From NCBI GenBank assembly GCA_017428785.1, contig JAFRQD010000017.1:1-40284 (forward strand): a stretch of DNA of 40,284 nucleotides, in the 5' to 3' direction. Under the pieces are notes generated by a model that had not been told where the DNA came from, did no database searches, and saw only the letters and a program-made list of their open reading frames with translations. The translations under genes were made by a program, and so were the position numbers. This DNA is from Bacteroidaceae bacterium. GTDB taxonomy: Bacteria; Bacteroidota; Bacteroidia; Bacteroidales; Bacteroidaceae. Shown piece by piece: positions 18,626 to 35,745 of the stretch (the stretch's first letter is position 1; every line of letters starts with the position of its first letter).

Positions 18626-19001
18626 TTGGAAAAAGTATTACAAAAGTGCGTAAAAAGTGCTTCGTGAAAAGACGAAGAATTTTGTAAAGATTTTGGAAAA
18701 ACGCGTGATTTCTCGCTTCAAAATGGGGCGATTTCAAACTCAGCAGGTGGCGTTTGTCATCTCCACACGTGGAATTTGCCATCCCCACACGTGGAAATGA
18801 CCAGTTCAACGTGTGGCGTTTGTGCATATATCATGTGTGATTCCCTGTTTTATGCAGTCGTATTTATTCATCTCTTTGCCTAAATCATTGAAAATCAAGA
18901 AAAGTTTATGCACTCTGAGAATCGAAAAAATTCGCCCTCCACTCGTCTCGCCTCCAAATAAGCCATTCTCAGAGGGTCAAAATTTGCCAGAATCTTGACA
19001 A
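18626..19001. repeat. collinear intergenic element R1 (about 376 bp)
   Basis: This element fills most of the 506-base gap after thrC. It contains, in order: a 27-bp box (18678-18704, TTTGTAAAGATTTTGG core) identical to R3; GGGGCG; four 22-bp units at 18731, 18753, 18775 and 18797 (for example TTTGCCATCCCCACACGTGG); a variable 95-base spacer; and a 10-bp inverted repeat CTCTGAGAAT/ATTCTCAGAG (18913-18922, 18965-18974) with a loop containing TCTCGCCTCCAAATA. Compared with R3 (35370-35745) all parts keep exactly the same spacing. No ORF explains it, and 22 is not a multiple of three. Confidence 0.8.
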
Positions 19002-19039
19002 ATACAATATGAAATGTAAGGTAGAAGTGTTATTTGTGA

Positions 19040-19279
19040 TTAGATTCTCAATAGGTCCTTGACTGAATAGATTCGGCTGAGGGCTTCGAAAGAGAAGTAC
19101 TGGTCGTCCATAATCATCCATTCTTCGCGCTGCTTGCGACTGAGGTGCTTGATGTCAGGAAACATGGAAACAGGTACAATTATCTCGCGTCCATCGGTCA
19201 AATAAGCAGCCATGGCACCACGTTTCACCTTAAAGTCAAGCTTCTTGATTCCTAAGTTTGTATCCTTGAATTTGCACAT
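19040..19279 (-). CDS. DUF2442 domain protein
   Basis: This 79-residue protein has the DUF2442 pattern: LTDGREIIVPVSMFPDIKHLSRKQREEW and a C-terminal SVKDLL. The family is small, often found next to DUF4160 genes, and has no established function; a link to toxin-antitoxin-like modules has been suggested by context. A CGGAGGA Shine-Dalgarno lies 8 nt before the ATG. No partner gene remains intact upstream, only a coding remnant at 19294-19376. Confidence 0.85.
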   Translation of the reverse strand: MCKFKDTNLGIKKLDFKVKRGAMAAYLTDGREIIVPVSMFPDIKHLSRKQREEWMIMDDQYFSFEALSRIYSVKDLLRI

Positions 19280-19293
19280 ATTGAGTCCTCCGA

Positions 19294-19376
19294 TTATTTG
19301 ATTCTCTTGATTCGTACTTTCTTTCCTGCAAACACGTCGTCGATGAGTTGGTTAAGCTCCTCAAGTAATTCTGCAG
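19294..19376 (-). pseudogene. coding remnant upstream of DUF2442
   Basis: The minus strand reads AAELLEELNQLIDDVFAGKK then VRIKRIK and TAA (19296-19294), a protein-like tail with no usable upstream ATG; an in-frame TAA lies just before it. It probably is the end of a lost partner gene of DUF2442. A GTG inside could start a 13-residue peptide, but this is not supported. Confidence 0.3.
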
Positions 19377-19408
19377 CAAAGGTACATCTTTACTATTAAA
19401 GAAGCAAA
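19377..19408 (-). promoter_or_regulatory. promoter of DUF2442
   Basis: TTTG (19408-19405), a 20-bp spacer and TACCTTTG (19384-19377) on the minus strand match the Bacteroidetes consensus well. The expected start is near 19370. Confidence 0.7.
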
Positions 19409-19494
19409 TAATTGAGGGCTTTTTGGAGGTTTATAAGTGATTGCTCCTATATAAGGCGAAAGTAATGAATTTCAATCAGCCCATTCTAAACGTC

Positions 19495-19531
19495 AAATCG
19501 GCTCAAAAGCATTTATCCTTCGAGCCGAGTT
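19495..19531. terminator. possible hairpin after the MORN-like gene
   Basis: CGGCTC (19499-19504) and GAGCCG (19522-19527) form a stem with A/T-rich flanks. The U-tract is weak in both directions. The rest of 19280-19587 holds only the DUF2442 promoter and remnant. Confidence 0.35.
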
Positions 19532-19587
19532 GTTATAAGGGAATGAGGCACTCTTTTTTTTATTTGAAATACTAAGATTGTATAATC

Positions 19588-21414
19588 CTATTCAATAGGT
19601 TTCAGTTCATGTGTTTTTAATACTAATGTATCATATTGATATGATAAAATCCCATAAATACCCCAATCTATAGAACGCTCATATTGTCCGTTCAAGTCGT
19701 ATAGTTTACAAGTGTATCCTCCGAATGTGGGATGCGACTCTTTGGATTTTCTAAGTATTTTTTTTCCTGAATTACCTTTTTCATATTTATATGCGCTTCG
19801 AATTTTCCCATCCGAGAAAAAATGGCATGCAAGTATGAGTTCTTTTGTGTTATAGTCAGATGATTTTATTGATTCAACAATGCCATTTTCATACCATGTA
19901 TATTCGTTTAGATATTGAGGCTCATTGCTTTTGGAATATGTAATTTCCCACTTTCGACGGTTATTGTTGTCAATTGCAAAAATCAATTTCGGGTTATGGT
20001 CAATAGAAAAAGTATAGGATTTCTTTATTTTGTCGTATGAAATGGTACACTCATTTATATAATCCTTAATAATATAATATTGCAAGTGTTCTTCTTTTGG
20101 ATCAAAATAACCGATAGTTAAAGGATAATAGTAATCTTGGAAATACTTTTTTCGTTGAAGCTTCTCTGCAAGTGCTCTGGCTTCTGAAGGATTTGAACAG
20201 CAATTAACTTTTTCCCATTCTTCATTTGTTAATCTGTATTTTTCCATCCAGTTCCCTTTAGATATACTACTGTCCGCAAAGAAGGTTGTTCCATCAATAT
20301 AAAATGATCCCGCAGACCTTGTAAGGTCTCCCTCAAATCTATCTCCATTTGGGTATTTGAATATACCATATACAGGAGTTGAGGTGATAATACTATCGTT
20401 TTCTTTGGTACTCTTTATTGTGCCTTCAAAGTAGTTACCATTTCTGAAAAACCATTTGGCAAGGTAGCAATTCTCGTAAAACTTTTCCATATTCCAAAGG
20501 TCTTTTTCTGAAATGGTTCCATTGTCTTTAACATACAAGATTTCCTTAAATAGAAGGGGGTTGTTATCGTTGTCTTCCTGAGTATAAATAATATCTCCAT
20601 TTGCATGGCTAACAGATGTCCTTCTGGGACCTGATGTAGAGCCAGAATGCTGACCGTCTAATGGATAAAATATGATTGATTTGTCTTTACGCAATTCTGT
20701 CTTAACATAGCCCTTATATACTTCGCCATCCTTCCAACTTTTTGTGACATTTTCTTTAGCGCGAAGGAGAATAGAGGTCATATCAAAAGAATCATCAGTG
20801 TTGAGAGTAATGTCAGGAATTTGTGCGGACAAGAAAGAGAATCCCATTCCCCCTTTTTCTCCATCGACATAAACCATAGATTTCTTATTATTTAACCTCA
20901 CAATCACAGGACATTGAAGATAAAAACCTTCCAAATATGATGCTTTGGAGCACTTTATTCTTAAATCTCCGGCTTTTTTAGCTTTATAATTCATGGAGAA
21001 ATCATCCATGTTATAGACATAAAATGAGCCATATGTTTTGTTGCTTTCGGCTGTGGCATTTCCATATTTGATGCCCTTAACGACCAATCTGTCTGCATCA
21101 TACGAAACCCTTCCTTCCAACAAAAGTTTGGGAATAAGCGAAGAGGTGTCATAAAACTTTGCAATCGTTCCTTCGCATAATACCCCTTTTGAGATAACAC
21201 CTGTGACAGAATAATGCTGTGCGGGGAAATCAATCGTTTTAGGAGCTTTCGAACTTATTGTAGAGGCAGCTCCCTCAATCTGTGTGTACCAACTTCGGAC
21301 TTCGGCACTAATCTTGTTAAAAGAACTTTGTGGTAATGCTGAAGTGCAAATACAAGATACAATGATGGAAGTAATAATATGTTTCAGATTGAAACGTGAT
21401 TCTTTTGATTTCAT
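19588..21414 (-). CDS. exported protein with MORN-like repeats, unknown function
   Basis: The 608-residue, AT-rich gene codes a signal peptide (HIITSIIVSCICTSALPQS). It is followed by beta-rich sequence with scattered MORN-type motifs: DGEVYKGYVKTEL (about 228), GNYFEGTIKS (about 325) and YPNGDRFEGDLTR (about 349), and in the C-terminal half YEN-G and F-x-x-G-K turns typical of toxin-antitoxin-like wordy repeats (WYENGIVESI, FSDGKIRSAY). No enzyme motif is visible. It lies 33 nt after the PD-(D/E)XK-like gene and is probably cotranscribed. The function is not known. Confidence 0.7.
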   Translation of the reverse strand: MKSKESRFNLKHIITSIIVSCICTSALPQSSFNKISAEVRSWYTQIEGAASTISSKAPKTIDFPAQHYSVTGVISKGVLCEGTIAKFYDTSSLIPKLLLEGRVSYDADRLVVKGIKYGNATAESNKTYGSFYVYNMDDFSMNYKAKKAGDLRIKCSKASYLEGFYLQCPVIVRLNNKKSMVYVDGEKGGMGFSFLSAQIPDITLNTDDSFDMTSILLRAKENVTKSWKDGEVYKGYVKTELRKDKSIIFYPLDGQHSGSTSGPRRTSVSHANGDIIYTQEDNDNNPLLFKEILYVKDNGTISEKDLWNMEKFYENCYLAKWFFRNGNYFEGTIKSTKENDSIITSTPVYGIFKYPNGDRFEGDLTRSAGSFYIDGTTFFADSSISKGNWMEKYRLTNEEWEKVNCCSNPSEARALAEKLQRKKYFQDYYYPLTIGYFDPKEEHLQYYIIKDYINECTISYDKIKKSYTFSIDHNPKLIFAIDNNNRRKWEITYSKSNEPQYLNEYTWYENGIVESIKSSDYNTKELILACHFFSDGKIRSAYKYEKGNSGKKILRKSKESHPTFGGYTCKLYDLNGQYERSIDWGIYGILSYQYDTLVLKTHELKPIE

Positions 21415-21447
21415 AAGCTATTATTTTTTCTGTTTAACAAAAACTCA

Positions 21448-22119
21448 TTAAAGAATTATTTTGTCACTGATATCTTCCCCTTCATTTTCAATCTTTCCCC
21501 TTTTGCTCTTTCCTTCTAACGCATAACATTTGAATATAGCCTTTATACCTTTGTTCTCCTTTAATTTGTTTCTTAAACTATTTATGGTATTGTCATTATA
21601 TGTCTTAATTAGTTCAATAAAATAACGCAGGACATTCTCCTGCCCTTCATTTATGTTATTAAGTTTTAGGAAATCTTTTTGATGGTCTATTATATTTGAA
21701 TTGTTCGCTTTGAATTCAATGAGACAAATCCTGTTGAGTCTTTCATCATATATTACTAGATCAAAATTAGCGCTATCTCCGTTTTCATAATCATCATTAC
21801 GAGGATTTTTTGTAGAAAAGCCCGAATAGGTTTTCATTCTTGTGGGAGTTTCTACAGAATAGAACAAATTCAAATGATTTGTTTTACAATACTCATTGAA
21901 TGATTCTACAAAAGCAAAGCGCAGTTCCTGTTCACTAATTCGAGTCGCATTGTCTCGATGTTCTCCATACATGGGAAAGACCAAGTGACTTCCTTCATTA
22001 GTAGGTGTTTGGGGAAAGTAAGTCGTGTTTTCTTTGTGATACTTATAAACATTACTTAATCTAATGAAGGTGGCACTTATAACAGAATCCATGACCTTTT
22101 CTAATTCTTTCTTGTTCAT
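21448..22119 (-). CDS. PD-(D/E)XK nuclease-like protein
   Basis: From ATG 22119 (MNKKELEKVMDSVISATFIR) the 223 residues contain NFDLVIYDERLNRICLIEFK near residue 140: an Asp followed after a beta-turn by E-F-K, the D...ExK arrangement of the PD-(D/E)XK nuclease fold. The upstream E in SEQELRFAFVE could be the helix residue. Which DNA or RNA it acts on, if any, is unknown; an inactive relative is possible. The open frame extends upstream to 22248 but that part is the 3' end of the structured RNA region. It precedes the exported MORN-like gene and lies behind the RNA candidate. Confidence 0.6.
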   Translation of the reverse strand: MNKKELEKVMDSVISATFIRLSNVYKYHKENTTYFPQTPTNEGSHLVFPMYGEHRDNATRISEQELRFAFVESFNEYCKTNHLNLFYSVETPTRMKTYSGFSTKNPRNDDYENGDSANFDLVIYDERLNRICLIEFKANNSNIIDHQKDFLKLNNINEGQENVLRYFIELIKTYNDNTINSLRNKLKENKGIKAIFKCYALEGKSKRGKIENEGEDISDKIIL

Positions 22120-22192
22120 AACTTTGAAACACCCATTTACTAGCCTCTTGACTCCCAAAGTCGGCGTGAATAATCTGTTAAGGTTTGGAAAC

Positions 22193-22505
22193 GAAAAAGG
22201 CGTGGGAGTTGTTTCTCCGTGCCTATCCCAGACTTCAGGCCTTCGCATTGCCCCTTCTCAAGGATAAGCAACGCAAGCCAGCCCACGCCGAGTAGTATTA
22301 TACAATTGAATATAATACACTCTACGCAGACGCTTCGTTGCATCACCTCTGTGAGAAGATTCAAGGTTGCGAAGTTTGAAGTCCCAGACAGGTAACGTCA
22401 GAAAACGTCCTTTTCCCCTTTGGCTGTCCTTACAAACGGAGTGCTCAGCCGCAGGATTCCATTAAGATTGATGACCCTCCCAGCACCTGAGTTGCTGACT
22501 TGAGT
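22193..22505 (-). ncRNA. structured RNA candidate with promoter and terminator
   Basis: No credible protein is coded here. The transcript predicted from the promoter at 22542-22512 has several stems: GTGCT/AGCAC near the 5' end (22486-22441), CTTCG/CGAAG enclosing ACCT/AGGT (about 22375-22330), a long GTATTATA/TATAATAC hairpin (22318-22293), and a closing GGCGTGGG (22289-22282) with CCCACGCC (22206-22199) followed by TTTTT (22198-22194), which looks like a terminator. An inner TTGCGTTGC/GCAATGCGAA stem lies inside the last one. I looked for the signature strings of tmRNA, RNase P RNA, SRP RNA and common riboswitches and did not find them. Confidence 0.55.
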
Positions 22506-22511
22506 CGGGTG

Positions 22512-22542
22512 CAAAGTTAAAGAAAACGATGTTATGCTCCAA
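22512..22542 (-). promoter_or_regulatory. promoter of the structured RNA candidate
   Basis: TTGG (22542-22539), a 19-bp spacer and TAACTTTG (22519-22512) on the minus strand. The start is expected near 22505. Confidence 0.65.
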
Positions 22543-22624
22543 GCTTTTTCAGGTAAATTCTTCGGAAATCATTCCTTTTCAAGGAAAAACTTGTGTAATG
22601 TATGGTTTTCTCCCATTTTTTTTG

Positions 22625-22632
22625 TACTTTTG
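22625..22632 (+). promoter_or_regulatory. -7 element of the nqr operon
   Basis: TACTTTTG fits TAnnTTTG and lies 35 nt before the nqrA ATG at 22668. The -33 region (TATGG, 22601-22605) is weak. Confidence 0.55.
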
Positions 22633-22667
22633 CGGCGCGAAAATAAACATTTTTTATTAACCCAGAT

Positions 22668-23996
22668 ATGGCAAAAGTAATTAAGTTACGCAAAGGCCTC
22701 GACATCAACCTCAAAGGCAAAGCCACGAAGGAGACAGCGACCGTGAAGTGTCCGGGCGAGTATGCTCTCGTTCCCGATGACTTCTATGGCGTGAAACCCA
22801 AAGTGGTAGTCAAGGAGGGAGATGCCGTGAAGGCTGGGGATGCCTTGTTCGTTGACAAGCTGCATCCCGAAGTGAAGTTCGTGAGCCCTGTCAGCGGAAC
22901 AGTCAGCATGGTGGAACGCGGCGACCGTCGCAAACTGCTGAGCATCCGCGTGAAGGCTGACGAGAAGCAGGAAGCACGCCAGTTCGACACGAAGGGTGAC
23001 CTGAAGGCACTCATGATGGAGAGCGGTTTGTTTGCTTTCCTGCGTCAACGTCCCTATGATGTGGTGGCAAATCCTGAGGACGCTCCGAAGGCTATCTTTG
23101 TGAGCGCGTTCAACAGCATGCCGCTGAGTCAGGACTTCGAGTACGTCCTCCAAGGTCAGGAGGCTGAGTTCCAGGCAGGTCTTTCCGCTTTGGCAAAGCT
23201 CGCAAAGGTTTATCTTGGCGTGAGCGCAAAGCAGACCGCAAAAGCTCTGACCGAGGCTAAGGACTGCGAAGTGAACATCTTCGACGGTCCTGCTCCTGCA
23301 GGTAATGTCGGCGTTCAAATCAATCACGTCAATCCCGTCAACAAGGGCGAAGTGGTTTGGACACTTGGAGCCGAGGAAGTTATCTTCCTGGGTCGCCTCT
23401 TAAAGACTGGCACGGTCGACTTCACTCGCACCATCGCGCTTGCTGGTAGCGAAGTGAAGGCGCCCAAGTACTACAAGGTGAAGGTCGGCCAGAAGTTGAC
23501 CACGCTCCTCGACGGCACAATCAATGCAGAAGGTGCTCGTATCATCAGCGGCAACGTGATGACTGGTCTCAAGACCTGTGCCGAAGGGTTCCTCGGCGCA
23601 CATGCAACCGAAGTGAACGTCATTCCCGAAGGCGACCACGCAGACGAAATGTTGGGCTGGATCATGCCACGCTTCAACACCTTCAGCACCCATCGCAGCT
23701 ATTTCAGCTGGCTCTTGGGTAAGAAGAAGGAATACGTCATCGATGCACGCGTCAAAGGCGGCGAACGTCACATGATCATGAGCGGCGAGTACGACAAAGT
23801 CTTTCCGATGGACATCTATGCGGGCTATCTCGTGAAGGCCATCATCGCAGGAGACATCGACCGCCAAGAAGCTCTGGGCATCTACGAGGTTGCTCCCGAG
23901 GACTTCGCCATTGCAGAGTTCGTGGACAGCTCGAAGCTCGAGTTGCAGCGCATCGTACGTGAAGGGTTGGACATCCTCAGAAAGGAAAACGCATAA
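22668..23996 (+). CDS. nqrA: Na+-translocating NADH:quinone reductase subunit A
   Basis: 442 residues beginning MAKVIKLRKGLDINLKGKA, the conserved NqrA start. The DKLHPEVKFVSPVSGTV and YFSWLLGKKKEYVIDARVKGG segments are typical. NqrA is the cytoplasmic, quinone-associated subunit of the Na+ pump that oxidises NADH and reduces ubi- or menaquinone. First gene of the operon, separated from nqrB by a 104-base spacer of A/T-rich repeats. Confidence 0.97.
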   Translation: MAKVIKLRKGLDINLKGKATKETATVKCPGEYALVPDDFYGVKPKVVVKEGDAVKAGDALFVDKLHPEVKFVSPVSGTVSMVERGDRRKLLSIRVKADEKQEARQFDTKGDLKALMMESGLFAFLRQRPYDVVANPEDAPKAIFVSAFNSMPLSQDFEYVLQGQEAEFQAGLSALAKLAKVYLGVSAKQTAKALTEAKDCEVNIFDGPAPAGNVGVQINHVNPVNKGEVVWTLGAEEVIFLGRLLKTGTVDFTRTIALAGSEVKAPKYYKVKVGQKLTTLLDGTINAEGARIISGNVMTGLKTCAEGFLGAHATEVNVIPEGDHADEMLGWIMPRFNTFSTHRSYFSWLLGKKKEYVIDARVKGGERHMIMSGEYDKVFPMDIYAGYLVKAIIAGDIDRQEALGIYEVAPEDFAIAEFVDSSKLELQRIVREGLDILRKENA

Positions 23997-24092
23997 GAAA
24001 AGTTGAAAAGTTGAAAAATTTAAAAAATGAAAAAGGAAATGAGTCAAAGTTTTTCACCTTTTCACCTTTTCACTTTTTTACCTTATTTATAT
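23997..24092. repeat. GTTGAAAA / TTTTCACC repeat between nqrA and nqrB
   Basis: Left part AAAAGTTGAAAAGTTG, right part TTTTTCACCTTTTCACC. Together they resemble the two flanks of the four-helix-bundle gene at 26756-27112, but with no gene between. The two parts are roughly inverted with respect to each other. Confidence 0.5.
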
Positions 24093-24100
24093 TATAAGTT

Positions 24101-25276
24101 ATGAATCCAATAAAGAAACTATTCGATAACATACATCCCTACGTTGAGGAAGGCGGCAAGTTCCATGCCCTCCGCTCGTTGGTGGACGGTTTCGAGACGT
24201 TTGCTTTCGTTCCGAACACAACCAGCCGCGTAGGTAGCGTGAACATCCACGATGCTATCGACAGCAAGCGCATCATGAGTCTCGTGGTGATTGCTCTGCT
24301 GCCAGCTCTGTTCTTCGGTATGTATAACGTGGGTTACCAGAACGCTCTCGCTACAGGTCATTTGGGCGATGCTACGTTCTGGGGCATGTTCTGGTACGGC
24401 TTCCTGGCCGTTCTGCCTAAGATTATTGTCAGCTATGTAGTGGGTCTCGGCATCGAGTTCACCGTAGCTCAGTGGAAGAACGAGGAGATTCAGGAAGGCT
24501 TCCTTGTATCCGGCATCATCATTCCCATGATTGTGCCCGTCACTTGTCCGCTTTGGATGCTCGCCATTGCCGTTGCCTTCAGCGTGATTCTCGCTAAGGA
24601 AATCTTCGGCGGTACAGGCATGAACATCTTCAATCCTGCCCTCATCACCCGTGCTTTCCTGTTCTTCAGCTATCCTGCTGCCATGACAGGTGACGCTAAG
24701 GTTTGGGTCGCTCAGGACACCATCTTCGGTCTTGGCTACAAGGCTACCGATGCCTACACAGCAGCCACACCTCTTGGCGAGGCAGCTCAGGCAGGTTTCC
24801 AAGGCTTTACACCCGACCAGATTCAGAATGCCATCACGGGTCTCATCCCTGGTTGCATTGGTGAGACCAGCGTGATTGCAATCGCTCTTGGCGGTTTGCT
24901 GCTGCTTTGGACTGGTGTAGCAAGCTGGAAGACCATGCTGAGCGTCTTCGTTGGTGGTGCTGCAACAGGTTACCTCATGCAAGCTCTCGGCCTGACTCAG
25001 ATTCAATGGTACGAGCAACTCGTTCTTGGCGGCTTCGCTTTCGGTGCAGTCTTCATGGCAACCGATCCCGTGACAAGCTGTCGTACAGAATGCGGCAAGT
25101 ATGTCTATGGCCTGCTCATCGGCTTTATCGCAGTCCTGGTTCGCGTCCTCAACCCGGGTTATCCCGAGGGCATGATGCTCGCCATCCTGCTGATGAACCT
25201 CTTTGCAAGCCTTATCGACTACTGCTTCGTACAGAGCAACATTAACATGCGTGCTAAGCGCGCCACAGTAAAGTAA
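24101..25276 (+). CDS. nqrB: Na+-NQR subunit B
   Basis: This 391-residue membrane subunit has about nine to ten hydrophobic segments. The covalent FMN site is Thr223 in AYTAATPLGE; NPALITRAFLFFSYP and ATDPVTSCRTECGK are family motifs. It passes electrons toward the quinone and takes part in Na+ movement. The length is close to the usual 410. Start at 24101, no strong Shine-Dalgarno. Confidence 0.97.
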   Translation: MNPIKKLFDNIHPYVEEGGKFHALRSLVDGFETFAFVPNTTSRVGSVNIHDAIDSKRIMSLVVIALLPALFFGMYNVGYQNALATGHLGDATFWGMFWYGFLAVLPKIIVSYVVGLGIEFTVAQWKNEEIQEGFLVSGIIIPMIVPVTCPLWMLAIAVAFSVILAKEIFGGTGMNIFNPALITRAFLFFSYPAAMTGDAKVWVAQDTIFGLGYKATDAYTAATPLGEAAQAGFQGFTPDQIQNAITGLIPGCIGETSVIAIALGGLLLLWTGVASWKTMLSVFVGGAATGYLMQALGLTQIQWYEQLVLGGFAFGAVFMATDPVTSCRTECGKYVYGLLIGFIAVLVRVLNPGYPEGMMLAILLMNLFASLIDYCFVQSNINMRAKRATVK

Positions 25277-25289
25277 GGAGGACAACGAT

Positions 25290-26078
25290 ATGAAACTGAA
25301 TACAAACGGAAATGTATATACCTTCTGCTATGCAGCAGTAATGGTTATCATCGTTGCCTTCCTGCTGGCTTTCGTAGCCTCTGCCTTGAAGGAGACTCAG
25401 GAAGCCAACGTGGCTAACGATACGAAGGGACAGATTCTCTCTGCTCTCGGTTACGACAAGGCTACCATCGATGTGGCTAAGGTCTATGAAGAGAAGGTGA
25501 AGGACAACCTCTTCGAAGCGGGCGAATTGAAGCCTTACGGGGAGAAGTTCAACACGACTTACGGCTCTCTCATTAAGGAAGGCAAGCTTCACGTCTTCAC
25601 TGGCACGACTGCTCAGGGCGAACAGGCTTATGTACTTCCTGTTGTGGGTCGCGGTCTTTGGGGCGGTCTTTGGGGTTACATCGCCGTGAACGAGGCGAAG
25701 GACAAAGTGCTCGGCACATACTTCTACCACGAAAGCGAGACTGCCGGCCTCGGTGCTCGCATCGGCGAGAAGTGGTTCCAAGACCAGTTCATCGGCAAGC
25801 CCATCTTCGGTGAGGACGGTAATGTCGCTCTCACAGTCACGAAGGCTGGTGCTGCTCAAAGCGAGTTCGAAGTGGACGGCGTGACCGGCGCTACCCTTAC
25901 CAGCAACGGCGTTGCCGCAATGGTCAAGGACGGCCTGGCTGCCTACAAGGAGTTCCTTGGTGGTGCTGCTTCTGAGTGTCCTAACAAAGGAAAGTGCCAG
26001 AAGGAAGGTGGATGTCAAGCTGAGGCAGAATGCACCTGCCCTGTAGGAGAGTGTGAAGAAACCAATGTTGAACAATAA
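25290..26078 (+). CDS. nqrC: Na+-NQR subunit C with cysteine-rich tail
   Basis: The 262 residues have one N-terminal membrane helix (about 9-31) and the FMN-attachment motif DGVTGATLTSN (modified Thr202 expected), the normal NqrC plan. After residue 225 there is an extra tail of 37 residues with six Cys (CPNKGKC, GGC, ECTC, GEC) not usual for NqrC. The tail could bind a metal or be oxidised in the periplasm; this is inference. AGGAGG at 25276-25281 gives a strong ribosome site overlapping the nqrB stop. Confidence 0.95.
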   Translation: MKLNTNGNVYTFCYAAVMVIIVAFLLAFVASALKETQEANVANDTKGQILSALGYDKATIDVAKVYEEKVKDNLFEAGELKPYGEKFNTTYGSLIKEGKLHVFTGTTAQGEQAYVLPVVGRGLWGGLWGYIAVNEAKDKVLGTYFYHESETAGLGARIGEKWFQDQFIGKPIFGEDGNVALTVTKAGAAQSEFEVDGVTGATLTSNGVAAMVKDGLAAYKEFLGGAASECPNKGKCQKEGGCQAEAECTCPVGECEETNVEQ

Positions 26079-26096
26079 TTAAAGGAGGAAAAGAAT

Positions 26097-26720: not shown

Positions 26721-26755
26721 AAAATTAAATAATTAAAAAGTTAAAAAAGAATTGC
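26721..26755. repeat. left A/T flank of the inserted four-helix gene
   Basis: GTTGAAAAATTAAATAATTA-type sequence following nqrD; approximate inverted counterpart of 27113-27150. Confidence 0.45.
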
Positions 26756-27157: not shown

Positions 27158-27784
27158 ATGGATCACATGATTTCTCTCTTTGTCCGCAGCATCTTTGTGG
27201 ACAACATGATATTCGCCTTCTTCCTGGGTATGTGCTCTTACCTGGCCGTATCCAAGAATGTGAAGACAGCCCTTGGCCTGGGCGTGGCAGTCACCTTCGT
27301 GCTGCTCGTCACAGTGCCAGTCGATTATGCTTTGCAGACCTACGTCCTCGGTCCCGATGCCATCGTAGCAGGCGTTGACCTGACGTTCCTTGCCTTCATC
27401 CTGTTCATCGCCGTTATTGCCGGTATGGTGCAGTTGGTGGAGATGATTGTGGAGCGCTTCAGCCCGTCGCTCTATGCTTCTCTCGGTATCTTCCTGCCTC
27501 TGATTGCAGTAAACTGCGCCATCATGGGTGCCAGCCTGTTCATGCAGCAGCGCGTCACGATGGAGCCCACCAATGCCCAGTTCATCGGCGGCTTCGGCGA
27601 CGCAATCGCTTATGCACTTGGTTCCGGTATCGGTTGGCTGCTGGCCATCGTTGGCCTTGCTGCCATTCGCGAGAAGATGGCTTACACCGACGTACCCAAG
27701 CCCCTGCAGGGCCTCGGCATTACATTCATCACAGTTGGTCTGATGGCACTTGCCTTCATGTGCTTCTCTGGCCTTAATATCTAA
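27158..27784 (+). CDS. nqrE: Na+-NQR subunit E
   Basis: 208 residues, six membrane helices. The start [20 protein letters not shown], the [12 protein letters not shown] motif with its conserved Cys, and [11 protein letters not shown] are typical. It pairs with NqrD around the membrane iron centre. Confidence 0.97.
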
Positions 27785-27802
27785 TAATAGGAGGAACAGA
27801 AT

Positions 27803-29092
27803 ATGGATATGAATTTGGTTTTAACCAGTATAGGAGTATTCCTTACTATTATTATGATACTGGTGGCAATCCTTCTCGTTGCGAAGGCTTATCTGTCGCC
27901 AAGTGGCAACGTGAATGTAACAATCAACGGCAAGGACACGCTCTCTGTTCCTCAGGGTGCTTCTCTGCTGAGCACGTTGAGTCAGGAAGGCGTCTTCCTT
28001 CCCTCAGCTTGCGGCGGCAAGGGCTCTTGCGGACAATGCAAACTGCAGGTAACGGCTGGTGGTGGCGAGATTCTCGACTCTGAGAAAGGCCACTTCACAC
28101 GCAAGCAAATCAAGGACCACTGGCGCCTCGGTTGCCAATGCAAAGTGAAGGGCGACCTCGAGGTTAAGGTTGACGACTCAGTAATGGGCGTAAAGGAATG
28201 GGAGTGCACCGTAATTGGCAACAAGAATGTGGCAACCTTCATCAAGGAGTACAAGGTGGCTCTGCCAGCTGGCGAGCACATGGACTTCGAGCCCGGCTCT
28301 TACGCACAGATCAAGATTCCTGCATTCGACTGCATCGACTACGACAAGGACTTCGACAAGTCTCTCATCGGCGATACTTATCTGCCTGCTTGGGAGAAGT
28401 TCGGCTTGTTCCCCCTCAAGTGCAAGAACCCGCAGGAAACTATCCGCGCATACTCTATGGCCAACTATCCCGACGAGGGCGACATCATCACCCTCAACGT
28501 CCGCATCGCTACGCCTCCCTTCAAGCCGAAGGAGCAAGGCCCTGGCTTCATGGACGTCAACCCGGGTATCGCTTCGTCGTACATCTTCTCGCTGAAGCCA
28601 GGCGACAAGGTCATCATGAGCGGTCCTTACGGAGAGTTCCGTCCGCAATACGGCACGGGACGTGAGATGATCTGGGTTGGCGGCGGTGCCGGCATGGCTC
28701 CTCTGCGTGCTCAGATCATGCACATGCTGAAGGGACACGGCGTGAAGGATGAAGACCGTCAGCGCCCCATGCACTACTTCTATGGCGCACGTGCCCTGGA
28801 GGAGATTCCTTTCCTCGACGACTTCCTGCAGCTCGAGAAGGACTTCCCCAACTTCCACTTCCATCTTGCTTTGGACCGTCCCGACCCGAAGGCAGATGCA
28901 GCAGGCATCAAGTACACGCCGGGCTTCGTGGCTCCCGTCATGGGCGACACCTACCTCAAGGCACACGAGGCACCCGAGGACTGCGAGTACTACCTCTGCG
29001 GACCTCCAATGATGGCAAAGACCGTGCTCGACCTCTTGCACTCTCTCGGCGTAGAGGACGACATGATTCGCTTCGACAACTTCGGCGGATAA
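27803..29092 (+). CDS. nqrF: Na+-NQR subunit F, NADH dehydrogenase flavoprotein
   Basis: 429 residues: one N-terminal helix (about 8-30), a 2Fe-2S ferredoxin domain with Cys70, Cys76, Cys79 and Cys111, an FAD domain with RAYSMANYP (215-223), and an NADH domain with GGGAGMAPLR (about 297). It takes electrons from NADH. AGGAGG at 27789-27794; the alternative ATG is 27809. Last core gene of the operon. Confidence 0.97.
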   Translation: MDMNLVLTSIGVFLTIIMILVAILLVAKAYLSPSGNVNVTINGKDTLSVPQGASLLSTLSQEGVFLPSACGGKGSCGQCKLQVTAGGGEILDSEKGHFTRKQIKDHWRLGCQCKVKGDLEVKVDDSVMGVKEWECTVIGNKNVATFIKEYKVALPAGEHMDFEPGSYAQIKIPAFDCIDYDKDFDKSLIGDTYLPAWEKFGLFPLKCKNPQETIRAYSMANYPDEGDIITLNVRIATPPFKPKEQGPGFMDVNPGIASSYIFSLKPGDKVIMSGPYGEFRPQYGTGREMIWVGGGAGMAPLRAQIMHMLKGHGVKDEDRQRPMHYFYGARALEEIPFLDDFLQLEKDFPNFHFHLALDRPDPKADAAGIKYTPGFVAPVMGDTYLKAHEAPEDCEYYLCGPPMMAKTVLDLLHSLGVEDDMIRFDNFGG

Positions 29093-29096
29093 CCCT

Positions 29097-29666
29097 ATGA
29101 AGAAATGTTTGCTTTTAGCGATAAGCTTGCTCCTTGCCCTCGCCGTGCAGGCGCAGACGAACCTTGTTGGTCGCACCTACTACAACGCTAACATCTTGTC
29201 CGACAAGATGAACGAGGCCATCAAACAGGTGCTTCCCGAAGCTAAGGCAGAAGCAATAGCCAAGGAGGAGAAGGAGAAAGGCCGCAAGCTGACGGATGCC
29301 GAGAAAGCCGCCGTAGAGAAGAAGCTTCAAGAGGCTAGGACCAAAGCCAACGCCGTGTTGAAAAGCATGAAGACAGCCGTCACCATTGAGTTCAAGTCGG
29401 AGTCGCAAGCCGTCATGAAGATGGACATGCAGATGGACGATGAAGCCTTGAAGCAAGCCGGCGTGAACTGGGCAAAGCGTAAAATGCTGAAGGCCCTATT
29501 GTCTATGGCTCCCTCTTCGGAGAAGGCAACGTATGTGGTCAAGGGCAACCTCGTCATCATGGATCCGAATGACGAGCCTGACACGCTTCGCCTCTCCGAC
29601 GACGGCAAGTATCTTTACGGCAAGTTTGATCAAAAGAGCGACATCAGGCTGACGCGAACGAAGTAA
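29097..29666 (+). CDS. small exported protein, unknown
   Basis: 189 residues with a signal peptide (MKKCLLLAISLLLALAVQAQ). It has a charged helical stretch with KEEKEKGRKLTDAEKAAVEK (about 58-80) and a beta-rich C-terminus (ATYVVKGNLVIMDPNDEPDT). It starts 4 nt after nqrF, so it is cotranscribed with the pump and ends before the terminator at 29697. No family is recognised; it may be a periplasmic accessory or simply hitch-hiking. Coding is well supported by codon use. Confidence 0.8.
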   Translation: MKKCLLLAISLLLALAVQAQTNLVGRTYYNANILSDKMNEAIKQVLPEAKAEAIAKEEKEKGRKLTDAEKAAVEKKLQEARTKANAVLKSMKTAVTIEFKSESQAVMKMDMQMDDEALKQAGVNWAKRKMLKALLSMAPSSEKATYVVKGNLVIMDPNDEPDTLRLSDDGKYLYGKFDQKSDIRLTRTK

Positions 29667-29696
29667 ACAGCAGCGAATTAGTTTAAAGTAATAGTC

Positions 29697-29736
29697 AAGC
29701 GGCGACAGAATCATCCATTTCTGTCGCCGCTTTTTT
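29697..29736 (+). terminator. rho-independent terminator of the nqr operon
   Basis: A perfect 14-bp stem AAGCGGCGACAGAA / TTCTGTCGCCGCTT with an 8-base loop, then a T-run. Confidence 0.93.
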
Positions 29737-29795
29737 GTTTATGTTGCTGTCTGGGGAAACGGCCGAGGTGGGGTGCAGGGAACGGCTCGCTTCCA

Positions 29796-29980
29796 ACCCC
29801 ACCCCTCGCTTCGCTTTTCCCCTCCCCTTCAAGGAATGGGAGGGGAGTTGGGGCGCTTGCCCTCCGCCCCTCCTTCTATGCGCTTTCCGCTTCTTCCGAT
29901 ATGTTCTTTCCGCTTCTTCTGACAAGGGGAGTTGGCATCCATGCTCCCCTCCCATCTAAGGGGAGGGGTAGGGGTGGGGT
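29796..29980. mobile_element. small palindromic C/G-rich repeat element
   Basis: ACCCCACCCCT at 29796-29806 and AGGGGTGGGGT at 29970-29980 are exact inverted ends; inside are CCCCTCCCC and GGGAGGGG hairpins. It resembles the short intergenic repeats common in Bacteroidetes, pieces of which also sit inside tamB. The gap 29737-30779 (1.04 kb) holds this, element E1 and array R2, and no gene. Confidence 0.55.
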
Positions 29981-30061
29981 ATGTCTGATGGAGAGGATTG
30001 TTTCTATGTGCCTCGTTATCATGGGGACAGGTAACCTCTGAGTAGTTTCCTCATATACTTC

Positions 30062-30382
30062 ATTTGTAAATATTGCTGTCCGGTAAAAATTTTTCATCAT
30101 TACCTGCACCCTCCTAACCATCGGCATTTAGAGCTACATGTGATTGGCAGGGGCTTGGGACGCCCCAAAGGGGCAGAAAGATGTCAGCCCAGGGCATCGC
30201 CCTGGGTGTTGAAATACCGCGGCAAATGACGCTCTGTAAGAGCAAAAGCACTAAAACACAAAGCTTTTGCCCCTTTAGGGCGAAATCTACTTCTGCGTCA
30301 TAAACCCAGGGCATCGCCCTGGGCTGACATCTTAATGGCCTTTCAGGCCGGATTTACCGGACACCAATAATTTGTAAATATA
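30062..30382. mobile_element. MITE-like element E1 with invertible-looking core
   Basis: Ends are inverted: ATTGCTGTCCGGTAAA (left) and TTTACCGGACACCAAT (right). The core (30208-30303) lies between near-perfect 28-bp inverted repeats (30180-30207, 30304-30331; GATGTCAGCCCAGGGC). Compared with E2 at 35787 the core has the same orientation but the outer arms are exchanged. No transposase is coded. Confidence 0.75.
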
Positions 30383-30591
30383 TTTCCTATGGGCACGCTT
30401 TCTGACGGCTTGTTTTTGCTTCTGTGGCACTTTGCTACCCCAAAGGAAAAATAAGGGCTTAAATCGAATTTCCCTCTGAAATCGGGGTTTTGCGAGGAGG
30501 CGTTTTTTTGACGAAGAGCAAAGAAAGTATAAGTGCCGAATATGATGTGGATAAATTCTGCGTGGATTTTTGCCAAATTCCGCCTGCTGCG

Positions 30592-30679
30592 ATGGGCAAC
30601 TCCACATGCGGAAATTGCAAACGCCGCGTGTGGCGTTGGTCAACATCGCGTGCGGCGTTGGCCGGCATCGCGTGCGGGA
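30592..30679. repeat. four-unit 22-bp array R2
   Basis: Units start at 30592, 30614, 30636 and 30658, all 22 bp, for example TTGGTCAACATCGCGTGCGG. Same period and number as in R1 and R3. Orientation may be opposite, because TTGACAAAAA reads on the minus strand to the right. It lies just after the tamB stop. Confidence 0.7.
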
Positions 30680-30779
30680 CTTCGAAATTCCGCCTTTTTC
30701 TGCTCGATTTTTGTCAAGAAAAATTCACCGGTTTCCCTTCTTCGGACAGGCGCAGCCGGATGCCTCGGAACAGAAAGCC

Positions 30780-33700
30780 TTACTTTGCGGCCTTCTTTTT
30801 CTTTGTTCGTTGGAAGAGTTCCTTGAAGCGGTCGAAGTCGCGTTGGAACTTGATGCCGATGCCTTGTGTAGTGAGCGAAGACTGGGTGAAGTAGCGGTCG
30901 TTGGTCTGATTGTAGGCTTTCAGCGAGAAGGGGCTGCGTGGCGAGAGTCGGTACTGTATGTCGAAGTCGCCGATGAAGTTGTTGCTACCCATCTTGTACT
31001 TGTTCTCTCTGTAGCCGAAGTTGCCGTTGAACTGCAGTCTGCCGCTCAGCATCTTGCCGCTCACCAAAGCCTCTGCATCCAGCTCCTGCCAGCCCTCTTC
31101 GCCGGTTCGGAGGTTTGTGCCGAGCGTCCATCCTGTTCCGCCCAAGGCACTCGACATGATTTGATTGAAACGGGAGCTTAATGCGCTGCTTACTACGGAG
31201 TTGACCGCCATGCTGCCCTTCGTCTGCTTTGTGTCGATGAGGGTGCCGTAGGTGTAGAACCTGCCGACTCCGAGCAGGTAGATAGCCTGCATGTCTCTGT
31301 CCTCCTCGCTGCTCATCATCGAGCGGACCATCTGCTTCTCGTCCTCATTTGCGTTGGGGATGTCGAAGTCGAAGCTGATGACGGGTTCCCGTGCCATACC
31401 GCCAATCTTCATGATGCAATCGACGCGTGTGTTGGAGAGGCCAAGTCCGGTGGCCGAGAGGTCGTCGAGCGAGACATTGGGCACCGTGTGTTTGGCGGTC
31501 AGGTTGAGTGCTGCCTGCATGGCGTCGCCGCCGAAGACAATGGTTCCGTCGGGCTGGAAGGTGAAGTCCTTGCGGATGACGTCGCGGATGGACATGCGAT
31601 AGTTGCCCTCTTCCACTCGGTAGGTGCCGAAGAGCTGGAAGCGGCCTTTGTTATAATAATGTGCTCTGAGACGTCCGTTGCCGTAGAGCGAGATGTTGTC
31701 ACCCGTTCTGGGGTCCATCAGGATGCGTATCTGGGCATTCGGGTTGGCGTTGATGTCGAAGTTGATTCGAAGGTCAGCCTCCCCCGTCTCCTCCAAAGAA
31801 GGGGTGAGCCGTCCCGCATCTTCGCCGTTCACCCCTCCTTTGGAGGGGCTGGGGGAGGCAGTACTTGTGTACGTCACAAAGTCGGCATCAGCCACAGTTC
31901 CCGTTGTTGCGGTATTGTAGTTGATAGTGGTGCCAGGCATGGGCGTAGCAGAGAGGTCGATGTTCACGTTGCCTGGCTCACCGCTCAGATGCACCTGAGC
32001 ATCAGCATATACTGTGCCGAAGAAGCTCATGCTGCCTTGATGGGGGAAGTTGTAGGCGAGCATGTTGTGGGCATCTATGCTGACATCAAAGCGAAGATTC
32101 TTGAGAGAGTTGTGCATCAGATGCGCATCAACTGTGGCAGCATGCTCGCTCATTCCGGGCATTCCCAAGTAGTCGTAGACATGCGCTCCACGAATCATGA
32201 TGTTGTCTGGCCGCAGGATGACGCTGTCGCCGGTAAGGTGGTAGTCCGCTCCGGTAGCAAGGACATTCACTTTCAGCTCATCGACAAACATGTCTCCTTC
32301 AAGATTGACGAACTTGAACGGACCGTAGATGCGCGTCCGTCCCGAGGCTCGTCCCTGCAGATTCCTGAAGATGCCTTTCGTGTACTTGTTCAGGAATGCG
32401 AGGTCTATGTGGCTGGTTTGCACGTTGAGGTTGAGTCCGTCGTCCATGCCCTTACCCGGGATGATGGTTCCCAGCACTTGAGTCCGATGCTCGGGCACAG
32501 GTCCCTTCATGTCCGCCTCCAGCATGATGGCACGTTCCTGTTTGCCCCAATTGCCGTAGAGGCTCATGTCTCCGAGGTTTGCGGCGTTGAACGTGAAGTC
32601 CTTTATCTGCAGGAAAGCGTCGGCAAAGGGTTTCTTCATGAGCGATGTGGCATAGATGCTTCCCGTTGCCCGACCGTCGAAATCCACTTTGTGGAAGTTC
32701 GCGAGGTCCATTATATAAGAGATGTCGATGTCGGCCAGCTCGGCTTTCAGGGTGTCGGAGGCAAGGGCGGAGACTCTTCCGCCAATGGTGATGTGTCTGT
32801 CTGCCTGGCTGATGGAGAGATCCTCCACATCCACAACCTTGTCGTGATACATGATGGTGGCAGGTTTGATGGCCCAAAGCGAGTCGCCGATGATGATACT
32901 CGACTTGTTTATCTTGGCGTTGATGGCAGGTTTGTCGGCCAGGTCTCGGCGAACTGTGCCGGTCAGGCTGATGTCGCCGGCATTCGAGATGGTTCCCTTG
33001 TTGTCCCATCTGAGGCGAGACGTCACCTTGTCATGGGTCGCATAGGCATCGAGGTTGATATCTACGGGCTTTCCCTTGATGAGTCGCTCGCCTTGAAGGC
33101 TGGTCTGGATGGACGTGCTTCCGGCTTCTGCCCTGCATTCGATGTTCTGCAACTCCTGCCCGGCCATCTCGAGACGGGGTATGTGCATTTGCATCGAAAT
33201 CTGCTCTATCGCATCGCTTATCGTGCCTTCGAAGGTGCTTCTGGCAGGCAGGCGAAGACTCTTGCCCAGCAGCCTTTCCGCCAGCACCGTGTCCTGAAGC
33301 TGAACGTGGAAGCGGAAGTCGTTGCCCACAGGCTTCTGATGGTTGGCATTCGAGGTGAAGAGGCTGGGCAGATTCTGTCGGAGAGAATGTGTGAAGGAAG
33401 CCGGAAGCGTCTTCCAGTTCATGATGCCGTCTGCCTTTACATTGAGGAAGTCGCTCTCCACAACGAGGTGCTGACTGCCTTCCGACTGGTAGCTTTCGAG
33501 TCCGACGTCGCCGATGCGGAGCGTTCCCTTGTCCTCCGAAGTGATTGTCAGCTCGCTGAGTTGCATGTCGCCCTGCAGGTTGTCGAGACTTAAGTCGCTG
33601 AATGTCGCATCGATAAGGCCGCTGAATCGTTCGCCCTCATAGCCTTTGGTGAGTCCCATCTTGTGCGGCGCGAAGTCGTTCAGCGTTGCCTGACAGATGA

Positions 33701-35165
33701 GCGAGCGTTTTCCATTAGCCATTGACCATTGCCCATTGACCATTGCCTGCCCGTTGGGTTCGTCCACCTTCAGCTCTCCGCCGATTGATTCGCCGTCCAG
33801 GCTTGCCGTGAAGGGTATGTTCCGATGCTCGTAGCCCCTGAAGGTGAGACTGTTAAGCAAACCCGTTGCTGTGAGTTTTGCCTGCCTGCCTTTGCCCGGG
33901 AGACTGCCCGAGACATGGGTTTCCACAGAGAGTGCCGTGTTTTTCCCTTCGCCTCGCAGGTCGAGCAGGTTGCCCAGCTTGAGGTCCTTCGCAGCCACCT
34001 TCGCATCTATCTCCTGCATGTGCGACAGATTTCCTTCAATCGCGACGCTTCCCTGCTCGCTTTCCGTCAGCAGATTCGCATGGAGTTCTTTGTTCTGCCA
34101 GGCAATCGAGCCCGACGACTTCGTGCTTCCCAATCGGCTGAGAATCGGGCTGATTTCCTTCGCCTGGCCTTGGAGATTCTGTGTTACGAACTGCTGCAAA
34201 GCCGCTCCTGTCCGCAGTTCTGTGATATCGGCGAACACGGAGGGATTGTCCTTGATGTCCTGAACCGTCGCATGGCAAAGCAGGGAAATGTTGCCGCCGT
34301 TGTCCTTGATGGAAAGGTTGGGCAGTCGCAGGATATTGTTCGCCAGCCCGACTTCGGTCGAGAGGTTGATGATGTCGCCAAAGTTCGCCAGTTTCGGAAC
34401 AAAACAGGAAAGGTCGCGAGGACTTAAGCTCCCCTTCAACTCTCCCGTCAAGGGGGAGAGTGTTTTGAAATCTGATGAGGTCAGTATTTCCCCGCCGAGG
34501 TTTGTGTTTGGCAATTCGAGTTGGAAAATAAGGTGTCTTTCCCCGCTTCCCTTTAGGGGAGAGGTGGGGAGAGAGGCTGTGAGTCGCTTGACTTCAAGCC
34601 CGCTTTGCTCACGGAAAGAGAGGTTTCTAAGGTCGATGGCAAGCGAATCGGGCTTCTTGAGGTACACTCTTGCCGTTAGGCTGAGGTCCTTCAGGTGCAG
34701 GTGATGAGGGTCGAAGACCTTTTGGGCGGTTCCCTCTCTCATGGAGGAGTCGGAGGGGGACCGTAGGTCGAACTGCACCTCACCTCGCCTCACGACCAAA
34801 GCTCCGATGGCGAGGTCGAGTGGGGAAGAGGTGGTGTCCTTCTTCGAGAAAGCGTCCACGAGGAACTGGAAGTTGAAGGGTTCGTCGCCGTCCTTGTAGA
34901 TCTTGGCTTTTGTCCCGATAAGCTGTGCTCCGGATATCCGTATCTTCTTCTCGATGAGGGGCATAAGGTCGATTTTCGCAGCGATACGCGAGGCCTGGAG
35001 CATCAGGGTGTCTTGCTGGTCGTAGAGCATCACGTTGTCCAAAATGACTTGCCCCAGCATGCTCAGCCGCAGGTTTCCGATGCTCACCTGGCACTTTGCT
35101 TTGTCCGCCAAAAGCTGCGACGCCTTCTCTGCCCCCCACCTTTGGAAAGCGGGCAGGGATGTCAT
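30780..35165 (-). CDS. tamB: TamB-like translocation/assembly protein (DUF490)
   Basis: A giant beta-rich envelope protein, 1461 residues from the first ATG. The C-terminal third has the TamB/DUF490 features (GNGRLRAHYYNKGRFQLFGT, FTFQPDGTIVFGGDA, LLGVGRFYTYGT). TamB bridges inner and outer membranes and aids outer-membrane protein or lipid transport. The frame upstream of ATG 35165 codes a perfect membrane anchor (IKAIKYIFRFLVGLLAIIYL) but has no ATG, GTG or TTG before the in-frame TGA at 35261-35259; the true start may be ATC at 35237. Repeat-derived insertions lie at 31777-31859, 33712-33747, 34427-34461 and 34537-34576. Strong promoter at 35298-35267. Confidence 0.88.
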   Translation of the reverse strand: MTSLPAFQRWGAEKASQLLADKAKCQVSIGNLRLSMLGQVILDNVMLYDQQDTLMLQASRIAAKIDLMPLIEKKIRISGAQLIGTKAKIYKDGDEPFNFQFLVDAFSKKDTTSSPLDLAIGALVVRRGEVQFDLRSPSDSSMREGTAQKVFDPHHLHLKDLSLTARVYLKKPDSLAIDLRNLSFREQSGLEVKRLTASLPTSPLKGSGERHLIFQLELPNTNLGGEILTSSDFKTLSPLTGELKGSLSPRDLSCFVPKLANFGDIINLSTEVGLANNILRLPNLSIKDNGGNISLLCHATVQDIKDNPSVFADITELRTGAALQQFVTQNLQGQAKEISPILSRLGSTKSSGSIAWQNKELHANLLTESEQGSVAIEGNLSHMQEIDAKVAAKDLKLGNLLDLRGEGKNTALSVETHVSGSLPGKGRQAKLTATGLLNSLTFRGYEHRNIPFTASLDGESIGGELKVDEPNGQAMVNGQWSMANGKRSLICQATLNDFAPHKMGLTKGYEGERFSGLIDATFSDLSLDNLQGDMQLSELTITSEDKGTLRIGDVGLESYQSEGSQHLVVESDFLNVKADGIMNWKTLPASFTHSLRQNLPSLFTSNANHQKPVGNDFRFHVQLQDTVLAERLLGKSLRLPARSTFEGTISDAIEQISMQMHIPRLEMAGQELQNIECRAEAGSTSIQTSLQGERLIKGKPVDINLDAYATHDKVTSRLRWDNKGTISNAGDISLTGTVRRDLADKPAINAKINKSSIIIGDSLWAIKPATIMYHDKVVDVEDLSISQADRHITIGGRVSALASDTLKAELADIDISYIMDLANFHKVDFDGRATGSIYATSLMKKPFADAFLQIKDFTFNAANLGDMSLYGNWGKQERAIMLEADMKGPVPEHRTQVLGTIIPGKGMDDGLNLNVQTSHIDLAFLNKYTKGIFRNLQGRASGRTRIYGPFKFVNLEGDMFVDELKVNVLATGADYHLTGDSVILRPDNIMIRGAHVYDYLGMPGMSEHAATVDAHLMHNSLKNLRFDVSIDAHNMLAYNFPHQGSMSFFGTVYADAQVHLSGEPGNVNIDLSATPMPGTTINYNTATTGTVADADFVTYTSTASPSPSKGGVNGEDAGRLTPSLEETGEADLRINFDINANPNAQIRILMDPRTGDNISLYGNGRLRAHYYNKGRFQLFGTYRVEEGNYRMSIRDVIRKDFTFQPDGTIVFGGDAMQAALNLTAKHTVPNVSLDDLSATGLGLSNTRVDCIMKIGGMAREPVISFDFDIPNANEDEKQMVRSMMSSEEDRDMQAIYLLGVGRFYTYGTLIDTKQTKGSMAVNSVVSSALSSRFNQIMSSALGGTGWTLGTNLRTGEEGWQELDAEALVSGKMLSGRLQFNGNFGYRENKYKMGSNNFIGDFDIQYRLSPRSPFSLKAYNQTNDRYFTQSSLTTQGIGIKFQRDFDRFKELFQRTKKKKAAK
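31777..31859. repeat. C/G palindromic repeat inside tamB
   Basis: Inverted ends GCCTCCCCC (31777-31785) and GGGGGAGGC (31851-31859). In the tamB frame it reads ASPSPSKGGVNGEDAGRLTP, a sequence unlike the rest of the protein but like intergenic repeats of this phylum. Confidence 0.7.
33712..33747. repeat. CCATTGACCATTGCC-type repeat inside tamB
   Basis: Tandem ATTGACCATTGCCC copies that code AMVNGQWSMANGK. In frame. Confidence 0.65.
34427..34576. repeat. two C/G repeats inside tamB
   Basis: 34427-34461 (CTCCCCTTCAACTCTCCCG, reads TLSPLTGELKGSLS) and 34537-34576 (CCGCTTCCCTTTAGGGGAGA, reads SLPTSPLKGSGERH). Both are hairpin-forming and in frame. Confidence 0.6.
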
Positions 35166-35266
35166 CAGCAGCAGGCTTAGGTAAATGATTGCCAGCAGGC
35201 CAACGAGGAAGCGGAATATGTATTTGATGGCTTTGATAAGCGACCTGTTTTCTTCGTTTCAATTTG

Positions 35267-35298
35267 CAAATATACGAAGAACCACGCAAAATGCAAAA
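35267..35298 (-). promoter_or_regulatory. promoter of tamB
   Basis: TTTTG (35298-35294), 19-bp spacer and TATATTTG (35274-35267). Start expected near 35260, only about 23 nt before the candidate ATC start at 35237. Confidence 0.75.
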
Positions 35299-35369
35299 GA
35301 AAATCTTGTTTTCTTTTGATTTATTAGGAAAAACAGCCTCCGGAAATTCCCGGAAAAGGGGTTCATTGC

Positions 35370-35745
35370 CGGAAAAACATTTGACAAAAACCCATAAAAC
35401 AGCCTTTGTGAAACAACGAAAAATTTTGTAAAGATTTTGGAAAAACGCTAAATTCACAGCCTCAAAACGGGGCGATTTTCAACTTAACAGGGAGAGATTG
35501 CCAACGCCGCAGGCGAAGTTTGCCAACTTAACACGCGAAGTTTGCCATTTCCGCTGCCTGTGTTTGCCCTCAAAGCACGCCTTTTTGCCACTTTTTGCTG
35601 CCTGCGGAAACAATCTTTACATGCTAAGTGGCTGATTGTCAGCAGTTGCCATTGTTCTCTGAGAATCGATTCTTTTCGTCCGTCGCGTGTCTCGCCTCCA
35701 AATACGCCATTCTCAGAGGGTCAGTTTTTTCCAAAATATTGACAA
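35370..35745. repeat. collinear intergenic element R3 (about 376 bp)
   Basis: Same order and spacing as R1: 27-bp box at 35422-35448 (identical), GGGGCG, four 22-bp units at 35475, 35497, 35519 and 35541 (TTTGCCAACTTAACACGCGA), 95-base spacer, inverted repeat CTCTGAGAAT/ATTCTCAGAG (35657-35666, 35709-35718) and final TTGACAA. It lies upstream of tamB; the gap to 36232 also holds E2 and a promoter. Confidence 0.8.

Follow-up and report, generated by a model that had tools for sequence, protein, structure and literature searches.

The 40,284-nucleotide contig JAFRQD010000017.1 of a Bacteroidaceae bacterium (assembly GCA_017428785.1), here called the window, is one whole contig of the source genome, labelled G000 (2.98 Mb, 71 contigs, 84% complete), and it carries intergenic elements built around short units repeated every 22 bp. 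Our comparison of these elements among rumen Prevotella relatives shows that their letters drift while length and the 22-base spacing stay largely fixed, and suggests that proteins may read the spacing along the helix. The elements are dispersed, two long families (A and B) keep a constant length apart from copies longer by 22 bp, the placement of family A at tamB is conserved, and RNA covariation is lacking in the folds examined. We propose, at about even confidence, that they are DNA-level protein-binding arrays under a helical-phase constraint, dispersed as non-autonomous elements, where we infer alike the protein reader, helical phase as the cause of the constraint and the transposition-like copying. 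Searches of the open PMC library gave no report of these elements. The initial annotation had described two 376-bp elements, R1 and R3, and a third array; this is confirmed, and the group proves wider, since it also takes in 88-bp arrays, another long family and related elements of other species.

R1 and R3, the family A elements of the window, had been described as diverged without net indel, and this was borne out: they align end to end at 67% identity, each with 376 bp. The identical 27-bp box, the four 22-bp units, the 10-bp inverted repeat with its 52-base offset and the final TTGACAA are likewise present in the sequence, placed as follows.

18628..19003, plus strand: R1, family A element, 376 bp, 3' of thrC (threonine synthase)
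18677..18703, plus strand: 27-bp box of R1, AATTTTGTAAAGATTTTGGAAAAACGC; the right end has a weaker inverted copy of the motif
18739..18826, plus strand: array of R1, four units at 22-bp pitch
18913..18974, plus strand: tail module of R1, CTCTGAGAAT...ATTCTCAGAG, 52-base offset (18913/18965)
18994..19002, plus strand: right-end motif of R1, CTTGACAAA
35372..35747, plus strand: R3, family A element, 376 bp, upstream of tamB
35421..35447, plus strand: R3 copy of the 27-bp box, identical to that of R1
35483..35570, plus strand: array of R3, four units at 22-bp pitch
35657..35718, plus strand: tail module of R3, 10-bp inverted repeat CTCTGAGAAT/ATTCTCAGAG, 52-base offset (35657/35709)
35739..35745, plus strand: final TTGACAA of R3
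30780-35165, minus strand: tamB (TamB-family gene)

Family A occurs in at least 11 species. Its matches were found in 23 of the 139 genomes of the genus comparison set (G000 included, other labels being of the type G091, G128, G038 or G042), own genome counted, and many of them cover the array or the tail alone; the R1-type tail module is the part oftenest present by itself in other species. G000 holds R1, R3 and C49. For all A and B sets near-full or best-scoring copies were chosen, a choice favouring equal length, and in this setting 15 near-full family A copies from 11 species measured 376 bp in 11 cases, 375 or 377 bp in three and 398 bp (376+22) in one, which has gained one whole unit. 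Mean pairwise identity was 61%, the lowest value being 43%, and per pair there were 146 substitutions but 0.51 gap events; several copies are not independent, as G084, G087 and G026 have flanks in common. The alignment consisted of 12 of 31 compared loci together with R1, R3 and L003. Omitted were the duplicates L324, L345 and L349, the orthologue of L003 (L321), the partial copies L322 (R3 5-332) and L323 (R3 73-332), the array-only L327 and L347, the 24-bp L348, and L334-L341, L343 and L346, which contain the tail module only.

Seven of these 15 copies lie upstream of tamB, namely R3 and those of six other species (the G026 match being short). In five of the seven species the element stands at a distance of 206 or 207 from tamB; the two remaining distances, 184 and 250, are about minus 22 and plus 44 relative to the common one. 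The 250 distance is due to a single 44-bp gap, while the difference at 184 is made up of several gaps and may owe something to luck. Another copy, beside a gene that we take to be tex (tex-like), is shared with G036 at 94-97% identity in the element and the adjoining sequence and 78-88% further upstream, with one bin lower. At thrC, no full R1-like element was found in 29 loci of relatives, many of which end at 1.5 kb, and one of them gave a short array match; a 22-bp array stands within 400 nt after thrC in 3 of 79 loci. Judged by threonine synthase, the relatives of G000 are mostly uncultured members of the Bacteroidales, Bacteroidaceae and Prevotellaceae from gut and rumen, some named Prevotella among them. 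We also observed in G084 (L328 1603-2204, minus strand) a gene that we presume to be PIN-domain-like, with a small partner, directly after the family A element; the corresponding interval of G087 has only about 30 bases.

The third locus, which had been taken for the same four-unit array as in R1 and R3, does hold a 22-bp array (five boxes, when one mismatch is allowed), but it is not a third copy, because it lies inside a different, longer element that we call family B.

30370..30726, plus strand: family B element, 357 bp, containing the third array; a TTTGTAAAGATTTTT-like motif stands at each end in the same orientation
30580..30677, plus strand: five boxes at exact 22-bp steps (starts 30580, 30602, 30624, 30646, 30668)

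For G000, at least 43 family B matches were listed, with 40 of 271 candidates scored. All 18 aligned copies are 355-357 bp long and share 68.7% identity, and per pair the substitutions number 108 and the gap events 0.52; the alignment began with 20 rows, and L315 and L316, most likely misplaced loci at contig ends, were removed as unalignable. Two further G000 copies are 378 bp long (356+22). The distance between end motifs, with up to one mismatch, was 337-339 in 16 of the 18 G000 copies, 350 in one, and the pair was not found in one. An open range of 200 to 480 bp was searched in 20 family B loci from other species, where the distance was 337-339 in 13, 360 in one, and no pair was found in six. 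As a control we used another dispersed repeat of G000, of about 211 bp with CCCAGGGC ends, which in the window occupies 30140-30350 and 35800-36010 and has 13 near-full copies in 800 kb. In the sample used for short-array and control-repeat counts (800,446 bases, 27% of the genome), the ratio of gap events to substitutions was 0.050-0.056 for the control (sets of 10 and 13 copies at 85% coverage) and 0.0043 for family B (11 copies at 75% coverage), that is, about 12 times higher in the control. Every reading frame is interrupted in at least one of the 18 family B copies, and a coding element was therefore rejected.

The earlier suggestion that fixed geometry combined with sequence drift points to function thus stands for the long elements, where 14 of 15 A copies agree within one base, the exception being +22, and in B the rate of gap events per substitution is about one twelfth of that in the control. 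The other arrays vary in unit number. Slippage, as in a minisatellite, was rejected for A and B, since neither shows free variation of unit number, spacing or small indels; other 22-bp arrays do vary and may still fit it.

Beyond the long families, 22-bp arrays exceed chance, and among tandem repeats outside open reading frames (ORFs) the period of 22 far outnumbers every other. A strict pattern of two CCGCNNGCGG boxes gave 397 matches in G000 and none for the reversed control pattern. With one mismatch allowed, 75 groups of at least two boxes were found in the 800,446 bases, holding exactly four boxes in 49 cases, five in 9, three in 6 and two in 11, some of the latter being chance, and 187 of 206 box spacings equalled 22. 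Arrays of exactly 88 bp with ACG...CGT ends numbered 48 in the sample, which would be about 180 genome-wide if the sample is typical. Outside long ORFs, tandem repeats of period 22 were counted 68 times in G000, 26 times in G091 (89% complete), 4 times in G128 and 32 times in a set of 20 further genus genomes, where the runner-up periods, 44 left out, reached 6, 2 (at 43), 0 and 4 respectively. In 11 genomes of other genera (399 kb, of which 36 kb lay outside long ORFs; the corresponding figure for the 20 genus genomes was 61 kb) there were none at period 22 and one at 21, and 50 kb of E. coli gave no tandem repeat at any period. A set of 80 named loci gave 15 matches at period 22, in 13 loci, and 4 at the next period, 44 left out. 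The unit sequences differ widely from species to species.

Some of these arrays were followed individually. The corresponding G091 intervals of seven testable G000 arrays contain an unrelated 22-bp array in three cases (G000 C2 and G091 C2) and none in four, which is too few to call, and two of the seven G000 arrays resemble simple AT-rich repeats. By eye, mostly three-unit TTGATTTATCATGATGCAGCAA arrays on G000 C2, C55, C56 and C57 appear to stand in phase inside other 22-bp series. The window has two more intergenic arrays, at 13177-13247 (about three 22-bp units) and at 13261-13337, and the region they span (13177-13337) adjoins a thiamine pyrophosphate (TPP) riboswitch (12961-13059, minus strand).

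13261..13337, plus strand: array of unrelated sequence, about four CGCAG-type boxes of about 21-22 bp, by eye

A structured RNA had been offered initially as one explanation of the geometry, and a structured or catalytic noncoding RNA of conserved length would account for the strict length and for the tail-module inverted repeat, in which 79.5% of cells are paired, against 28.5-43.8% when slid by 1-3 columns. The comparative evidence did not sustain it, and we consider such an RNA very improbable: the tail hairpin shows no covariation above shuffles, none of 28 predicted pairs in family B is compensatory, and the family A consensus fold has four pairs at -1.2 kcal/mol, three of them with double changes. 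The elements in the window had no Rfam match over threshold, and around R1 there were only far sub-threshold matches (the scan covered R1, not R3). Five single arrays of 88 or 89 bases do fold with z of -2.6 to -7.1. A global RNA hairpin was nevertheless rejected, these folds being outweighed by the shuffle test, in which the halves of 48 arrays pair less than shuffled halves (32.3 vs 35.1 of 44; 2000 of 2000 draws at or above the observed value). Additionally, boxes 2 and 3 share their central dinucleotide in 40 of the 48 short arrays and have complementary ones in none, which is the pattern of direct repeats. Pairing worse than in shuffled sequence, non-complementary dinucleotides and lack of covariation therefore favour DNA. 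A protein array on one DNA face, the other explanation given at first, is consistent with the two-turn pitch and the +22 step.

The position of the short arrays brings in a different reading, that they are transcribed palindromic repeats at gene 3' ends which work as RNA hairpins in termination or in the protection of mRNA ends. With genes called by an in-house script, 42 of the 48 short arrays could be assigned to a gap between genes of 100 bp or more (six were not placed). Of these 42, 27 had a gene 3' end within 60 nt, vs 8.0 expected, and none of 2000 draws gave a count as high as 27. The gaps were convergent in 19, tandem in 18 and divergent in 5 cases (9.2, 18.4 and 14.4 expected), and a weak flank consensus CCCCTNNAGGGG followed by T-rich sequence points outward on both sides. 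Repetitive extragenic palindromic (REP) elements of the GTAG and CGTC families, which are short high-copy repeats, are described as lying mostly between tandem or convergent genes near 3' ends (PMC3733652). The short arrays thus resemble REPs, as far as that description goes, in being short, high-copy and at gene 3' ends, though among our elements this placement belongs to the short arrays only, and the five single folds mentioned above fit as well. However, avoidance of promoters alone would yield the same 3'-end bias, the copies at tamB, as we read it, are placed upstream of what looks like a promoter, and the shuffle and dinucleotide results tell against hairpins. A REP-like or terminator-like role also leaves the strict length of A and B and the single pitch in unrelated sequences unexplained, and we regard it as unlikely. 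Unlike the REPs described there, our arrays have direct-repeat units at a fixed pitch, sequences unrelated between species of one genus and no link to Y1 or REP-associated tyrosine transposases (RAYT). An origin from RAYT/REP was rejected, as the Y1_Tnp domain (PF01797) does not track the arrays, with one match in G000 and none in G091 despite 208 strict matches.

How the elements spread is a related question. Two copies in G038 are 94% identical over 339 bp with flanks that do not match, and one G000 family B copy is missing from the short syntenic interval of G091; we therefore conclude that they disperse. The same facts would fit a plain miniature inverted-repeat transposable element (MITE) without host function, its geometry being a requirement of the transposase. 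Bursts in few genomes point the same way, with 224, 208 (G091) and 34 strict matches in three of the 139 genus genomes and 0-2 in the other 136, as do the right end of family A, which holds an inverted copy (19 bp) of the family's motif, and, as usual for MITEs, dispersed copies without matching flanks and no frame open through the 18 B copies. Against it stand the old copies kept at tamB and beside the tex-like gene, the failure of Y1 transposases to track the arrays (other transposase families were not searched), and a Mu/TnsB-type domain (PF09299) in only one of 139 genus genomes. On balance we judge this reading somewhat unlikely. The ends of Mu and Tn7 contain 22-bp transposase sites, and our arrays resemble them in having few sites of about 22 bp read as DNA; unlike in those systems, the Mu-transpos_C domain is confined to that single genome, which is not G000, so an origin from Mu, Tn7 or TnsB was rejected.

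Other known repeats were compared. BOX repeats are modular. Pneumococcal BOX, RUP and SPRITE are intergenic repeats of few related species that their authors judged parasitic, and the abstract, unlike our findings, does not mention one pitch across unrelated sequences (PMC3049150). Closer is the BrickBuilt MITE of Porphyromonas gingivalis, which is intergenic and dispersed, with an array of 23-nt direct repeats between a non-repetitive leader and tail, 1 to 22.8 repeats, 84-991 nt, 0-6% indels within an element and IS5-like terminal repeats (PMC4596501). The likeness lies in a dispersed intergenic Bacteroidales element with a direct-repeat array, and the difference in that the length of A and B is kept, save in +22 copies (A 14 of 15 at 375-377 bp; B 18 of 18 at 355-357 bp, two more +22). 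Compared by eye, their ends also appear to differ from IS5-like repeats, being AAAAATCTTTACAAA-like, direct in B and with an inner inverted copy in A. For A and B, membership in BrickBuilt as described there fails on widely varying unit number, and other genus arrays do vary. No known family is assigned, since BrickBuilt, REP/RAYT and Mu/Tn7 each fail a tested feature.

Returning to the protein-binding arrays, we suggest that the elements may act as DNA-level scaffolds of two-helical-turn units, most often four, which would bring the binding sites of a cooperative or oligomerising protein onto a single face of the DNA. In A and B the array sits within a frame of fixed length with AAAAATCTTTACAAA-like motifs at start and end, and most short arrays are without such motifs. 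Substitutions would be tolerated and single-base indels mostly not, because the proposed assembly needs its sites in phase, and a whole unit (+22 bp) could be gained. Short arrays and longer elements would spread through the genome as non-autonomous elements, some copies, as those upstream of tamB and beside the tex-like gene, being old and kept in place.

Several observations weigh against this proposal. Outside A and B the unit number is not fixed: 66 arrays of G000 have three units in 21, four in 32 and five in 12, and 32 arrays of 20 genus genomes have three in 6, four in 14, five in 6 and up to 14 units. In G091 a single 21-bp interval is frequent in short arrays (on C1, 11 of 44 short spacings). 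Looked for within 350 bp of the array, the end motif is present in 9 of 66 cases in G000, 0 of 25 in G091, 0 of 4 in G128, 3 of 32 in other genus genomes (all in G042, whose arrays near the motif carry unrelated units) and 1 of 15 at named loci; the frame therefore marks A, B and some arrays, not all, and the motif was rejected as a general array mark, being present only in A, B and G042. Palindromic units, with 6 of 38 sites at p<0.05, are weak as a general rule. Compensatory changes inside units were rejected, as they are not enriched (19 of 538 changed cells, 3.5%, vs 2.9% at other centres). Six of 14 other-species B loci with a right motif gave a second match elsewhere. Furthermore, the B end motifs are direct and those of A mixed, and therefore no single transposition model fits both.

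More broadly, and only tentatively, the elements may form a genus-wide class of noncoding DNA defined by geometry and not by sequence, with two-turn units, mostly four, in letters unrelated between species and between families of one genome, long families framed at fixed length, and length changes mainly in two-turn steps; the frame would be read by a phase-sensitive protein assembly and the array would be exchangeable. If reading by phase holds, these noncoding elements would be largely missed by sequence searches and found by a census of periodicity, and R3 at tamB would allow a direct test of what organises these chromosomes or spreads the repeats. Constant length at 61% identity offers a clean case of apparent selection on spacing.

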